A DNA stretch of 64,000 nucleotides from Fidelibacterota bacterium (lineage in GTDB: Bacteria; Fidelibacterota; Marinisomatia; Marinisomatales; UBA1611): contig PAPB01000028.1 in NCBI GenBank assembly GCA_002708715.1, positions 1-64,000 of the forward strand, in the 5' to 3' direction. The first letter of the stretch is position 1, and each line of letters opens with the position of its first letter. The notes beneath the pieces were generated by a model, which ran no database searches, was not told the origin of the DNA, and saw only the letters and a program-made list of their open reading frames with translations. The translations under genes and the position numbers were made by a program. Positions 16,058 through 29,774 of the stretch are shown one piece after another.

Positions 16058-16489
16058 ATGACGTTAGTAAAATGGAAACAAAACTCATACAATGAATTAG
16101 ATTCAATGGTTAAAACAATATTTAACACCGATTGGAACTTCCCATCGCAAAACATACAAGAATGGGCACCACCAGTTGATATAAAAGAAACGGATAAGGT
16201 TTTTATAATAAAATCTGATATTACGGGACTTACAAAAAAAGATATAAAAATAAACATCAAAGATAGATTATTAACTATTTCAGGTGAACGGCAAGAAGAT
16301 GTAAATAACAGTGATGATTATTACCACTATCGCGAAAGATCAACTGGGAAATTTCATAGATCTTTCAACCTTCCTGAATCAATAGATGAAGATAAAATTA
16401 AAGCAAACTTTAAAAATGGAGTATTGATAATTGAAATTGAAAAACATGAAGATATTCTTCCAAAAGAAAAAGAAATCAAAATAAACTAA
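16058..16489 (+). CDS. Hsp20/alpha-crystallin small heat-shock protein
   Basis: APPVDIKETDKVFIIKSDITGLTKKDIKINIKDRLLTISGERQ; RSFNLPESIDEDKIKANFKNGVLIIEIEK. Confidence 0.95.
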   Translation: MTLVKWKQNSYNELDSMVKTIFNTDWNFPSQNIQEWAPPVDIKETDKVFIIKSDITGLTKKDIKINIKDRLLTISGERQEDVNNSDDYYHYRERSTGKFHRSFNLPESIDEDKIKANFKNGVLIIEIEKHEDILPKEKEIKIN

Positions 16490-16558: not shown

Positions 16559-18046
16559 TTAAAAGCTATTTTTCTTAATAGGTATTTTTAATTCTCTACA
16601 AGAATTTTTAAGCGCATTATAGTACTTACGAGGACCACTATAGAATACGCTGCAATTCAAATCAGAAAATTTTTTTCGAGACTCTGTAAGCTTATCACTC
16701 CAGTTGGGCAGACCAAAATTAGTAATATCCCAAAGATTATCAATTAGAGATACCTTTGTACTTTTATCAACCGCATTAGTTGCTATATACATAAGTTTCT
16801 CATTAAAAGAATCTGGGGATTTATCCACAAAATATATATGATAATTAAACATATCAGAATCATCATTTATATCTTGTAGAAGTTTAGTAAACCATTCAAA
16901 ATATACGTGATCCTCAATAATCCAATGAAGGTCTATTCTTTTAAGTAAAATTTTATTGGAATCATTATTTAAACGTAAAGCAATATCCTGAAGTATTGGA
17001 GCTATGCGTGAGATTCCATGGCCAGCTCCTACTAAAACAGCATGCTCAGTATCTATTATTGATTCACTCGATTCGCCATAGGGTCCATCTAGCCTAATCA
17101 TCCAATCAAGAGCGGCGTCTTTTTCGATAACTCTAAGAGTCTTATCATACAGTTCTTTGGACCACCTATCATTTGATTTTACATGCAAAACCAAATGTCC
17201 CTCACTATTCCTTTGAATAATATTAAAAGGATACCACTCAGTCGAAGAAATCTCTTTACAATTTATATATACATAATCACCAGGTTTATAATGAAAATTA
17301 TCTGATACTGATACTGATAATTCTAGAACTTTTGAAGGAAGCAAACTAACAGATTCTAGTTTAACGTTCTTCCGATTCTTTTTTCTATTCATTAAAACAT
17401 TATAAAAAAAAATAAATCTTGGAATTAAAAGCCACTTAAATACACTTATATCTTGAACTTGTATACTTTTTTTTGGTTTATTTTTTTTCGAACTAGATGT
17501 ATTAGCTTTTAAAAGTGCATCTTCGTATCTATCAGGAATAAGCCAATTCACAGGGTTAACCGCAAAACCTTCAATAAAATCTGGATAATCATGTGCAACA
17601 TTTAAAAACTCATCAAAATCTATTGTGTCGCTATGATCCAGATCAGCCCTTTTAAAAAAATCCTCGACAAGTAAATCTAGTTGAAACTCATCAAAGTCTA
17701 AGCTATTCTCAATAAAGCTTTGCTTAATCAATATTTTTAGCTCTTCCCTATCTATATAGCCACTATTATCAAGATCATGAAGTTCAAAAGCAAAACGAAT
17801 TTTTTCTTTTTCATCTCCATAGATTACAGATTCAATAGTGCCCATAAACTCATTATAATCAATAGATCCACTGCCATCTTTATCAAAAATATCAAACAAT
17901 CTATCAGAGATATCCTTGTTGGACAATTCAAGACCATTTTGAAACTCTTCTCGATCTATTAACTGATCATCCCCAGCTATTTCACGAAACTTATTTTTCA
18001 AGTCAATTAAAAATGGTCCTGCAAGTTTTTTTGATTTATTTATCAC
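16559..18046 (-). CDS. NOX5-like EF-hand protein with NADPH-oxidase-type FAD/NAD(P)H dehydrogenase domain, lacking the haem transmembrane domain
   Basis: EF-hand loops DKDGSGSIDYNE, DLDNSGYIDREE, DLDHSDTIDFDE; NOX signatures KWLLIPRFIFF...VSLLPSKVLEL, YKPGDYVYINCKEISSTEWYPFNI, DGPYGE, HAVLVGAGHGISRIAPILQDI, FYSGPRKYYNAL, terminal Phe. Confidence 0.85.
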   Translation of the reverse strand: MINKSKKLAGPFLIDLKNKFREIAGDDQLIDREEFQNGLELSNKDISDRLFDIFDKDGSGSIDYNEFMGTIESVIYGDEKEKIRFAFELHDLDNSGYIDREELKILIKQSFIENSLDFDEFQLDLLVEDFFKRADLDHSDTIDFDEFLNVAHDYPDFIEGFAVNPVNWLIPDRYEDALLKANTSSSKKNKPKKSIQVQDISVFKWLLIPRFIFFYNVLMNRKKNRKNVKLESVSLLPSKVLELSVSVSDNFHYKPGDYVYINCKEISSTEWYPFNIIQRNSEGHLVLHVKSNDRWSKELYDKTLRVIEKDAALDWMIRLDGPYGESSESIIDTEHAVLVGAGHGISRIAPILQDIALRLNNDSNKILLKRIDLHWIIEDHVYFEWFTKLLQDINDDSDMFNYHIYFVDKSPDSFNEKLMYIATNAVDKSTKVSLIDNLWDITNFGLPNWSDKLTESRKKFSDLNCSVFYSGPRKYYNALKNSCRELKIPIKKNSF

Positions 18047-18133
18047 AGATGTTTTCCATGTTAAGATTGATATACATCCCCTAATTTATCGAAAGCATTT
18101 TAATCTAAAAGAGAACTTTTTAAGGCTATTTAA

Positions 18134-19090
18134 ATGATTCATAATAATATTTTATCAACCATAGGCAATACACCTGTAGTAAAATTAAATAAAATTGGCT
18201 CAAAACTACCATGTGAGTTATATGCAAAATGCGAATTTTTTAATCCAGGTGGATCCATAAAAGATCGTATTGGCTGGAAAATGGTAGAAGATGCAGAAAC
18301 AGAAGGAAGAATTAAACCTGGTGACACACTCATTGAGCCAACCTCTGGAAATACTGGACAAGGTATCGCACTGGCTGCTGCAGTAAAAGGCTATCGCTGT
18401 ATTATTACTATGCCTGAAAAAATGAGTCAAGAAAAACAAATTGCTCTTGAGGCTCTTGGAGCTAAAATAGTAAGGACACCTACTGAGGCAGCATTTGATG
18501 ACCCTGAAAGTCACATTGGAGTTGCAAAAAAACTACAGAGTGAAATTAAAGATTCTCATATACTCGATCAATATGGAAACCAATCCAATCCTGATGCACA
18601 TTACCATGGAACAGCACAAGAGATCCTTGATGAATTTGGCTCAGATTTGCACATGGTCGTAATGGGTGTTGGAACAGGAGGCACAATAACAGGTGTCGCA
18701 AAACGCCTAAAAGAAGCGATACCAAATATCATCATTGTAGGAGCAGACCCTGTTGGGTCCATTCTTGGCGGAGGTAATAAAGTTAAACCTTATCTTGTAG
18801 AGGGCATTGGATATGATTTTTTTCCAGATGTCTTAGACAATAACCTAGTTGATAAATACGTAAAAACTGAAGATGAAGAATCATTTCTCCTAGCCAGACG
18901 CCTTATCAAAGAAGAAGGACTATTATGCGGTGGATCATGCGGAAGCGCAATGGCAGCCGCTCTACAATCAGCAGAAAAACTTGATCGTAATCAAAAATGT
19001 CTTGTTATTCTTCCAGATGGGATAAGAAACTATATGACCAAATTTCCGAATGATGAATGGATGAGATCAAAAGGGTTTAAAACTGATTAA
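18134..19090 (+). CDS. cysK: Cysteine synthase / O-acetylserine sulfhydrylase-type PLP enzyme
   Basis: [14 protein letters not shown] (PLP Lys), [41 protein letters not shown]. Confidence 0.94.
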
Positions 19091-19127: not shown

Positions 19128-20948
19128 GTGCTATGGGTAGCCCCTGTCATCTATTTTAACTTTTCATATCCAGAGACTGAATGGGACTGGGATAGAATTG
19201 ACACACAAGACATCCACTTTCCTAAATCATTTGCATGGGGAACCGCGACTGCGGCCCATCAGGTTGAGGGAAACAATACAAACAACAATTGGTATCAATG
19301 GGAGAATGAAGTAGATGAAGACAACCTTCCACGGATTCATAATGGAGACAAATCATCCATAGCCGCTGATCATTGGAAAAGGTACCCTGATGATATCAAA
19401 CTAATGAATGAATTAGGTGTTAACCACTATCGATTTTCTATTGAATGGTCGAGGATTGAGCCTGAAAGAGGAGTCTTTAACCTAGATGCCATTAACCACT
19501 ATCGAGACCTATGTGACTCTCTTCTGAAAAATAACATTACCCCAGTAGTTACCCTCCACCACTTTACTCATCCTATATGGTTTGAAGAACTTGGCGCATT
19601 TGAAAAACAAGAAAATATAAAATATTTTATAAAATACTCTGAATATGCATTTAATAATCTCCAAGACCTAGTTCCTATCTGGTGTACCATCAATGAGCCA
19701 TCCGTATTTGTCTCTCAGGGGTATTTTAACGGGATATTTCCTCCAGGAAAAAAAGATCCAGTATTGGCTGCTACAGTTCTGGAGAATCTTCTCAATGCGC
19801 ATACAAAAGTCTATAAACATCTAAAAGAATTGAAAGGAGGAAGCAAAGCCCAGATTGGTCTTGTGAAAAATATATTTCAATTTGATCCACTCAGAAGGTG
19901 GCACATTCTTGACTGGATATTTAGCAATGTTTTAAATAATGTTTTTACTAATTCATCTATAGACTTTCTCAAGACAGGTCATTCTACTTTTTCCCTGCCA
20001 GGGATGGTACATAAAGAAATGATAAATCCTGATGCGGTAGGAGCACTTGATTTTATTGGACTCAACTATTACTCAAGGATGCATGTGATAGGCCAAGCCA
20101 GTCTTGCAGAACCTTTTTTATTTGAAAAACGTGAAAAAGATATCCAAACGGATATGGACTACGCTTTATACCCTGAAGGATTTTATAAAGCGCTCCACAC
20201 AATAAGTACCCTTGAAAAGCCTATATATGTTACTGAAAATGGTGTTGCAGATCATGGAGATAGTATTCGGACACTATTTATCAAACGCTACCTCTATGCA
20301 CTAAATATGGCACTCAAAGATAGGCTCGATATCAGAGGATATTTCTACTGGACCCTGATGGATAATTTTGAATGGGCAGAAGGCTATAAAATGAAATTTG
20401 GCCTCTACGAAGTAGACTTCAATACCCAAAAACGTACTCTCAGAAAGAGCAGTAAACCATTTATTGATATGGTTAAAAAAAGAGGCGCTGATGAGCGTGG
20501 ATATATAGTAGGCATAGGTGACGATGCTCCAGATTTCACCATGGAATATACAACAGGTGAAAGAGTCACTCTATCACAGTTAAAAGGCCAGGTAGTGGTT
20601 CTACAATTCACCGCTAGCTGGTGTTCGGTGTGTAGAAAAGAGATGCCACACCTTGAGAAAGATGTCTGGCAAGCATTCAAAGATAAAGGAGTCAAACTAA
20701 TTGGGATAGATAGGGATGAACCTCTGGAGACAGTAATTAAGTTTCAAAAAGATATGGGTACTACATACCCTCTTGCTCTTGATCCTGGAGCTAATATTTT
20801 TGGATTATTTGCTGATAAAAACTCTGGAGTTACCAGGAATATTGTTATTGATCAACAAGGGAAAATTGTTTTTCTAACCAGATTATTTGATCATAATGAA
20901 TTTAATAAAATGATAGAGGTAATTGATAATTTGGTTAACTCAATTTGA
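19128..20948 (+). CDS. GH1 family glycosidase fused to TlpA/ResA-type thioredoxin domain
   Basis: GH1: FAWGTATAAHQVEG, RFSIEWSRIEPERG, TINEPS (acid/base), YVTENG (nucleophile), YFYWTLMDNFEWAEGY; redoxin: GDDAPDFTMEYTTGERVTLSQLKGQVVVLQFTASWCSVCRKEMP. GTG start as given; translation reads open upstream into a TM-like segment. Confidence 0.92.
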   Translation: MLWVAPVIYFNFSYPETEWDWDRIDTQDIHFPKSFAWGTATAAHQVEGNNTNNNWYQWENEVDEDNLPRIHNGDKSSIAADHWKRYPDDIKLMNELGVNHYRFSIEWSRIEPERGVFNLDAINHYRDLCDSLLKNNITPVVTLHHFTHPIWFEELGAFEKQENIKYFIKYSEYAFNNLQDLVPIWCTINEPSVFVSQGYFNGIFPPGKKDPVLAATVLENLLNAHTKVYKHLKELKGGSKAQIGLVKNIFQFDPLRRWHILDWIFSNVLNNVFTNSSIDFLKTGHSTFSLPGMVHKEMINPDAVGALDFIGLNYYSRMHVIGQASLAEPFLFEKREKDIQTDMDYALYPEGFYKALHTISTLEKPIYVTENGVADHGDSIRTLFIKRYLYALNMALKDRLDIRGYFYWTLMDNFEWAEGYKMKFGLYEVDFNTQKRTLRKSSKPFIDMVKKRGADERGYIVGIGDDAPDFTMEYTTGERVTLSQLKGQVVVLQFTASWCSVCRKEMPHLEKDVWQAFKDKGVKLIGIDRDEPLETVIKFQKDMGTTYPLALDPGANIFGLFADKNSGVTRNIVIDQQGKIVFLTRLFDHNEFNKMIEVIDNLVNSI

Positions 20949-28526: not shown

Positions 28527-29774
28527 TTACGGTAACAGTGAATCATAGTAGTCATCAACACTGTCGTAATCCATTTTCCCAACAAAATTAGAAAATACAA
28601 AATAGCTAACTAAATAATTCATATCAGTCACCCAATTAGGTAAAAACTTTGGTTTCTGTAAAAATCCATCTTCTCTCATCCGAAGAAGTATAGGTATATC
28701 ATCAAGATCAACCTTGCCAGAAAATAACACCTCAATCGCATCTTTATTTCCTCTTAAAATAGCTGATCTAAAAAAATTATGAACCCTTACCAAACCATCC
28801 AAATACACAATATCCTTTGTAAAAGGAGCTCCTCCGCTTAATACCCCTCCTCTAAACACCCTTCTCGCATCCTCAAAGGCCTGAGTCTTCTTACCAGCCC
28901 TTTTTAAGAAAAAACGATATACCTCAATAAAATCTGCACCATCTATAGCCATTTGGATTGCTATAACTCTATCTGAGATTCTATACATTCGATTTACATC
29001 AATACAGCCCGTTATAAATTCAGAAAATACTGCAAGACCCTCTTGAGTTTTAGTGATTGAACCATATTTAGCACCAAGAATTTTTAAATCTTTTTGAAGG
29101 CGTCCATTTAAAGTGGTTGCAACATGAGTAAATGCCTCATGATTTACCAATTGCTCCACATCCTTACTTGTAAAGGTTGCACCTTTCCTTAATCGGATTC
29201 TTTTTGAACTGGCAGTGGCCTTAGCTGATAAATTGTCTTTGATCAGCACCTCTGGACTTTGGGATCCAAACACAGGAGTTATTCTTGATTCAATTTCTTT
29301 TTTAACATCAGCAATAGTAATAGTCTTACTACGTAATGACTTAGAGAAACGTTCAAAATACGAATCAATTAATGATTCAAATTGTCTTGCAAGATCAATC
29401 GTGGATGTTTTACCATCTCTTAAAAAACCGCTTGGAGAACCATATATTTTTTCAGAATTTTGAAAGAACTCTTTTGTTCCACAGGAATTTAATAGGTCAA
29501 CGCTTGACCTAATATCATTTGCTTTGGATCGTAACCAGTGATCATATGGAGTATCACCAAATACACTTTCAATACTTGTTAATTTATTTAGTATATCTCC
29601 TGAGTCAAATTTTAAATATTCTACTTTAGGAAGCTTTTCAGACTTGGTTCTAAAAAATTTAAAACGAACATTGTCTGGCCATACTAAATGACGAAGAATT
29701 TTGACTCGCCTACTTATTTCATAAAGACTAGAGGATATCTGCTTTATTCTTATTGAATCTTTTTTACTGATCAT
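28527..29774 (-). CDS. DUF1704 / QEGLA-motif putative metalloprotease
   Basis: VNHEAFTHVATTLNGR and TQEGLAVFSEF motifs. Confidence 0.85.
   Translation of the reverse strand: MISKKDSIRIKQISSSLYEISRRVKILRHLVWPDNVRFKFFRTKSEKLPKVEYLKFDSGDILNKLTSIESVFGDTPYDHWLRSKANDIRSSVDLLNSCGTKEFFQNSEKIYGSPSGFLRDGKTSTIDLARQFESLIDSYFERFSKSLRSKTITIADVKKEIESRITPVFGSQSPEVLIKDNLSAKATASSKRIRLRKGATFTSKDVEQLVNHEAFTHVATTLNGRLQKDLKILGAKYGSITKTQEGLAVFSEFITGCIDVNRMYRISDRVIAIQMAIDGADFIEVYRFFLKRAGKKTQAFEDARRVFRGGVLSGGAPFTKDIVYLDGLVRVHNFFRSAILRGNKDAIEVLFSGKVDLDDIPILLRMREDGFLQKPKFLPNWVTDMNYLVSYFVFSNFVGKMDYDSVDDYYDSLLP

Follow-up and report, generated by a model that had tools for sequence, protein, structure and literature searches.

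A NOX5-like EF-hand protein without the haem transmembrane domain in one family of Fidelibacterota

NOX enzymes are defined by their haem transmembrane core, a six-helix ferric-reductase domain with paired haem histidines that serves superoxide production. The window studied here (the whole 64,000-nucleotide stretch of a Fidelibacterota contig that was analysed) contains a gene whose product has the calcium sensor and the dehydrogenase of NOX5 on either side of the place where this core is expected, which raises the question of what a NOX5-type protein can be without it and where its electrons could go. Since the haem transmembrane domain, the defining test of a NOX, is missing, we file the protein as a NOX5-derived variant and not as a NOX, and refer to it as the TM-less protein. 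Its gene, parts and neighbours are listed in Table 1.

Table 1. Features of the TM-less NOX5-like gene and its surroundings (window coordinates; residue numbers in brackets)
Feature	Coordinates	Strand	Basis and remarks
Hsp20 small heat-shock protein gene, convergent	16058..16489	+	PF00011, synteny; conserved neighbour
TM-less NOX5-like gene	16559..18046	-	495 aa, GTG start; orthologues in 24 genomes
Terminal Phe codon	16562..16564	-	Translation, motif alignment
NAD_binding_6 domain (335-483) with GAGHGIS and YSGP motifs	16598..17044	-	Pfam, motif alignment
FAD_binding_8 domain (226-327) with YPFN, LHVK and RLDGPYG motifs	17066..17371	-	Pfam, motif alignment
Conserved QVQDI motif and TM6-derived helix FKWLLIPRFIFFYNVLMNRKKNR (196-225)	17372..17461	-	Ungapped alignment to TM6 of L060 and human NOX5
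Variable polar linker (176-195) in place of TM1-TM5	17462..17521	-	Alignment with full-length family NOX5
Conserved pre-TM1-like motif GFAVNPVNWLIPDRYE (~160-175)	17522..17569	-	Aligned with NOX5 pre-TM1 region
EF-hand domain (17-150)	17597..17998	-	Pfam EF-hand_7/EF-hand_1; aligns to NOX5 EF domain
EF4 loop DLDHSDTIDFDE (135-146)	17609..17644	-	Motif alignment
EF3 loop DLDNSGYIDREE (91-102)	17741..17776	-	Motif alignment
EF2 loop DKDGSGSIDYNE (55-66)	17849..17884	-	D1, D3, D9 and E12 in every orthologue covering the loop
Degenerate EF1 loop GDDQLIDREEFQ (25-36)	17939..17974	-	Motif alignment
Short intergenic region between the divergent TM-less and PLP enzyme genes	18047..18133		~85-95 bp in orthologous loci
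PLP enzyme gene (cystathionine beta-synthase/cysteine synthase type), divergent	18134..19090	+	PF00291; TIGR01137 above cut-off; conserved neighbour

Domain content and remains of the haem domain

The coordinates and the frame given in the preliminary description are right: the ORF codes for 495 aa from a GTG codon, which in orthologues is ATG. As that description had anticipated, the Pfam scan found EF-hand models (matching three stretches of the ORF), FAD_binding_8 (E 2.3e-20) and NAD_binding_6 (E 2.5e-15), the latter two well above their curated cut-offs, and no Ferric_reduct in the ORF even at E<=10. The possibility that this domain is encoded in an adjacent gene had also been raised; it is absent from the window genome. 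The set of three canonical EF-hand loops preceded by a degenerate one was confirmed both with Pfam and by alignment to the NOX5 EF domain, and the acidic ligands of EF2-EF4 are intact across all TM-less members, genus g11 included.

A phmmer search against PDB placed human NOX5 on top (1.2e-54), followed by DUOX1 and the csNOX5 dehydrogenase. Query residues 17-170 align to human NOX5 residues 14-167 and those from 202 onward to NOX5 from 373 onward, so the haem transmembrane block is skipped. An AlphaFold2 model was built from 11 sequences (pLDDT 66.8); pLDDT is mostly 70-90 in the dehydrogenase and below 50 at residues 155-225. In the Foldseek search human NOX5 was again the top match (1.5e-22), with TMt of up to ~0.8 for structures of the csNOX5 dehydrogenase. 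Sequence and fold matches to NOX5, DUOX and NOX2 dehydrogenases are well above those to ordinary FNRs, so the earlier assignment to NOX dehydrogenases and not to ordinary ferredoxin reductases holds. An ordinary FNR/Fre flavin reductase was ruled out, the NCBIfam Fre and LuxG flavin reductase models giving weak matches to the 495-aa protein, far below cut-off, and NOX5/DUOX giving the best ones.

In the preliminary description the haem domain was thought to be replaced by about 50 polar residues. Alignment with the two full-length NOX5 proteins of the same family (genomes G013 and G019) agrees that TM1-TM5 are gone, but the polar linker is only ~20 residues long and is framed by retained NOX5 elements: the pre-TM1 motif FAVNPVNWLIPDRYE precedes it, and QVQ(D/N)(I/L) follows, leading into FKWLLIPRFIFFYNVLMNRKKNR, which aligns without gaps to NOX5 TM6 FWKWLLVPGLLFLIERWVR. 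Judged from these alignments, five of the six helices are lost and the sixth (TM6) is remodelled. The TM6-derived helix has borderline hydropathy and a central Arg/Lys fixed in the family, which makes a peripheral or monotopic helix more likely than a membrane-spanning one.

Distribution, genomic context and selection

The ~495-aa TM-less architecture occurs in 24 of the 33 genomes, and in 9 of the 11 genera, of one Fidelibacterota (Marinimicrobia) family. It was not found in 68 relatives outside the family, and 212 further genomes of the phylum, searched with the full-length protein as query, yielded weak partial matches only and no other NOX5-type protein. Relatives are titled Candidatus Neomarinimicrobiota in GenBank, Fidelibacterota being the present NCBI name; a scan of genome contigs, which reaches close relatives only, returned only records titled Neomarinimicrobiota/Marinimicrobia or unnamed bacteria. 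Viral or plasmid origin was ruled out, as relatives are absent from the viral contigs and plasmids searched; no full-length NOX5 was found on plasmids either.

Within the 33 family genomes, Ferric_reduct is limited to two full-length NOX5 genes, those of G013 and G019 (662 and 663 aa), plus sub-threshold matches in G007 and G022, two genomes in which no TM-less gene was found. The domain was detected in the G019 protein by hmmscan, and the scores of the two proteins exceed the family cut-off. In genomes carrying the TM-less gene no haem-domain gene was found, except in G019, where the separate full-length NOX5 is the only one. The full-length gene occupies a different locus, beside multihaem cytochromes c. 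This block is conserved (L060:7232-14967 in G019, L059:6510-14250 in G013): besides NOX5 it codes for an acyl/acetyl-CoA synthetase and three multihaem c-type cytochromes, and it has a neighbouring pair of genes of one family, of which the one scanned codes for GAPDH. Its function may possibly be electron export to periplasmic cytochromes, beyond superoxide production alone.

The TM-less gene is head-to-head with the PLP enzyme gene at every locus where the contig reaches far enough, and the opposite flank carries the Hsp20 gene and tldD, pmbA and rmuC genes. In genus g9 an SDR gene lies 2-3 bp after the TM-less gene and is followed by an FMN_red gene; in genus g7 FMN_red comes next. Two of the three genus g2 genomes, and G024 (g9), have these neighbours but no NOX gene. 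In G024 (L107, G024:C42) the loss is clean: the SDR gene has moved into first place and the promoter region is preserved; because the promoter side is still recognisable, we consider this a secondary loss. In g9, g2 and G024 (L043:8720-9958, L105:5691-6922, L107:462-1932) the SDR and FMN_red pair has the NOX/PLP-gene junction on one side and hsp20 on the other, and it persists where the NOX gene is lost; g7 has FMN_red alone. Locus L045 (G001:C89) shows a mirrored gene order around the NOX gene and a truncated protein, probably due to an inverted-repeat assembly artefact.

In the phylogenetic tree the TM-less proteins form one clade (support 100/100) on a long branch beside NOX5. Their grouping with, or derivation from, the full-length NOX5 of the same family was neither supported nor rejected by the AU test (p 0.18). 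The gene is under purifying selection: dN/dS in close g11 pairs is ~0.12 overall and 0.06-0.10 in the EF domain, and the NAD domain has ~0.11-0.24 in TM-less pairs where it could be measured. As dS was saturated in several other pairs, dN alone was compared there. Among TM-less pairs constraint is strongest in the EF domain, and in most of them dN peaks in the NAD domain, whereas full-length NOX5 has its lowest dN there.

Active-site residues and comparison with known systems

Active-site residues were read from the alignment of the TM-less family against published NOX/DUOX structures. NOX consensus motifs are HPFTI, GxGxTP and CGP, or in wider form HPF(S/T), XGXGX and CG(S/P); all motifs quoted in the preliminary description are present, but YPFNI, GAGHGIS and SGP are altered forms of these three. 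HPF(S/T) is changed to (Y/H/F)PF(N/T) in TM-less members, mostly with Tyr for His and Asn for Ser/Thr, Pro and Phe being invariant. In SpNOX, this Pro-Phe pair (P234-F235) lies on the flavin si-face and sandwiches the flavin together with F397 (PMC11031084). In most members the glycine motif reads GAGHGIS and CGP is replaced by SGP. The HIR position is occupied by Lys in nearly all members; SpNOX has Lys250 there (PMC11564096). DGP(Y/F)G is kept, the residue before it being Arg wherever readable as opposed to Leu in full-length family NOX5.

R1424 and R1495 of DUOX1 bind the 2'-phosphate of NADPH and discriminate NADPH from NADH (PMC7794343). In the TM-less family the former site is E, D, S or A, with Arg in L042 only, and the latter (R513) is never Arg. 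SpNOX uses both NADH and NADPH, and its lack of NADPH specificity was explained by absent ionic contacts to the 2'-phosphate (PMC11564096). The residue changes argue for NADH, or for no nucleotide preference, over NADPH. The terminal Phe, noted earlier, is present in the window protein, but genus g11 lacks it. Outside g11 it is retained together with the GxG motif and SGP/CGP. Within g11, L056-L058 read AED for GxG, and L056-L057 also have SGP changed to AGS, which argues for loss of nucleotide binding in that genus.

With NOX5 (human; csNOX5) the TM-less protein shares a degenerate EF1, canonical EF2-4, pre-TM1, FAD_binding_8 and NAD_binding_6 in the same order. It differs in having neither TM1-TM5 nor haems, in YPFN for HPFT and SGP for CGP, and in the loss of the NADPH-selecting Arg; the long nucleotide-lobe insertions of human NOX5 are also absent. 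Full-length NOX5 of the family (G013, G019) is ~42-44% identical to it in the EF domain and ~32% in the dehydrogenase but has Ferric_reduct, consensus motifs and the other locus described above. The isolated SpNOX dehydrogenase and Fre are flavin reductases built on a haem-free NOX- or FNR-type module (PMC11031084); however, the SpNOX module is a laboratory construct, and neither it nor Fre-type reductases have EF-hands. Human NOX4D, in which most of the transmembrane domain is missing and the FAD and NADPH sites are kept, is reported to produce ROS (PMC5739649); it is a splice form without EF-hands, while the bacterial TM-less form is a dedicated, vertically inherited gene. The literature searched, with subscription journals and preprints outside its scope, describes no gene of this architecture and does not mention NADPH oxidase and Marinimicrobia together. 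The bacterial NOX5-type EF-hand proteins described so far are few and cyanobacterial, and have been attributed to gene transfer from eukaryotes (PMC9421330); Fidelibacterota are a second phylum of bacteria with such proteins, in both full-length and stripped forms.

Possible function and alternative readings

Calcium control of human NOX5 is exerted on the NADPH-to-FAD step by way of the EF domain, pre-TM1, REFBD and the nucleotide lobe (PMC11088703). The parts that carry this effect lie outside TM1-5 and are present in the TM-less protein. Given this, and given the flavin reductase activity of a NOX dehydrogenase on its own, we favour reading the TM-less protein as a flavin reductase or diaphorase that is gated by calcium, leans towards NADH and sits at the inner face of the membrane, a sequence-based reading that we judge to have an even chance of being correct. 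An ancestral NOX5-type oxidase would have lost TM1-TM5 and both haems and kept the EF switch, pre-TM1, a remodelled TM6 and the whole dehydrogenase. Binding of Ca2+ to EF2-EF4 would then dock the EF domain on the dehydrogenase and, via the pre-TM1 segment and the nucleotide lobe, open the nicotinamide pocket, so that NAD(P)H, probably NADH, could hand hydride to FAD. Since there is no haem to drain the flavin, it would give up its electrons without an intermediary, to O2, free flavin or a small soluble carrier; the acceptor would thus probably be intracellular. The TM6-derived helix and the NRKKNR tail would probably serve as the anchor at the membrane. In this scheme we infer calcium gating, NADH use, the acceptor and membrane association.

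The SDR and FMN_red genes downstream in g9, and FMN_red in g7, fit a flavin-redox role. Counted against flavin reductase activity are the HPFT and CGP changes, the high dN of the NAD domain, the motif losses in g11 and the weak model at 155-225. Affinity for FAD and NADPH may also be poor, because the DUOX1 transmembrane domain supplies contacts to both (PMC7794343). More tentatively, and with slightly less than even confidence, we propose a natural, vertically inherited haem-free class of bacterial NOX5, a calcium-gated and NADH-preferring flavin reductase that would reuse the NOX5 switch and send electrons into the cytoplasm, not across the membrane. A stable lineage that has no haem core and keeps calcium sensor and dehydrogenase amounts to an experiment done by nature. 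Its protein is compact and probably easy to purify, and so lends itself to asking whether the NAD(P)H-to-FAD step is itself under calcium control, a question standing between the NOX5 and DUOX1 structural papers. If true, a haem-free class would show that NOX5 calcium control acts on hydride transfer without the haem domain.

An artefact or a gene in decay (a full NOX5 that is frameshifted, misassembled or turned into a pseudogene) could be suspected, as the sequences are MAG-derived, the G001 relative is truncated by its mirrored contig and G024 has lost the gene. However, the same architecture is found in 24 genomes, mostly at one locus, with shared junction motifs and under purifying selection; conservation therefore refutes this explanation, to which we give practically no credence. 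A different view of the residue changes is that part of the clade may have turned into a calcium-sensing scaffold, where the dehydrogenase fold mainly gives the EF domain something to dock on, and catalysis is lost or fading, at least in g11. The weak constraint on the NAD domain would agree with this (the weakest of all domains in most TM-less pairs, but the strongest in full-length NOX5), as would the g11 losses (no terminal Phe; AED and AGS in L056-L057) against EF loops that are intact throughout; yet GxG, SGP/CGP, PF, DGPYG and the terminal Phe are kept outside g11, and NAD domain dN/dS is still ~0.11-0.24 where measurable. We find the scaffold reading, the stronger of the two main rivals, rather unlikely.

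Instead of reducing a soluble acceptor, the protein could work as part of a split NOX, passing electrons in trans to a separate membrane haem or quinone protein in the way Fre does to MsrQ, a precedent cited in PMC5676040 and PMC11031084. The retained TM6-like helix would place it at the membrane, but the window genome has no Ferric_reduct, and the family has only the full-length NOX5 genes and the two sub-threshold matches, in genomes with no TM-less gene found. A hydropathy count of low sensitivity (1 and 3 helices in two full-length controls) revealed no conserved polytopic gene next to the TM-less gene, the only recurrent one, ~6-7 kb away, coding for CDP-alcohol phosphatidyltransferase. 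On the same evidence a split haem domain next door was ruled out, and we regard electron delivery in trans as quite improbable.

Two other genes of the surroundings were noted. The gene at 19128-20948 of the window codes for a GH1 beta-glycosidase that carries an AhpC/TSA-Redoxin domain as a C-terminal fusion; its syntenic counterpart in some sister genomes codes for the redoxin part alone (~170 aa). MATCAP, a tyrosine carboxypeptidase, is known mainly as a microtubule enzyme, and its Pfam model matches a conserved bacterial neighbour here, L056:11565-12818 (1.5e-110), whose syntenic gene in the window is located at 28530-29774.
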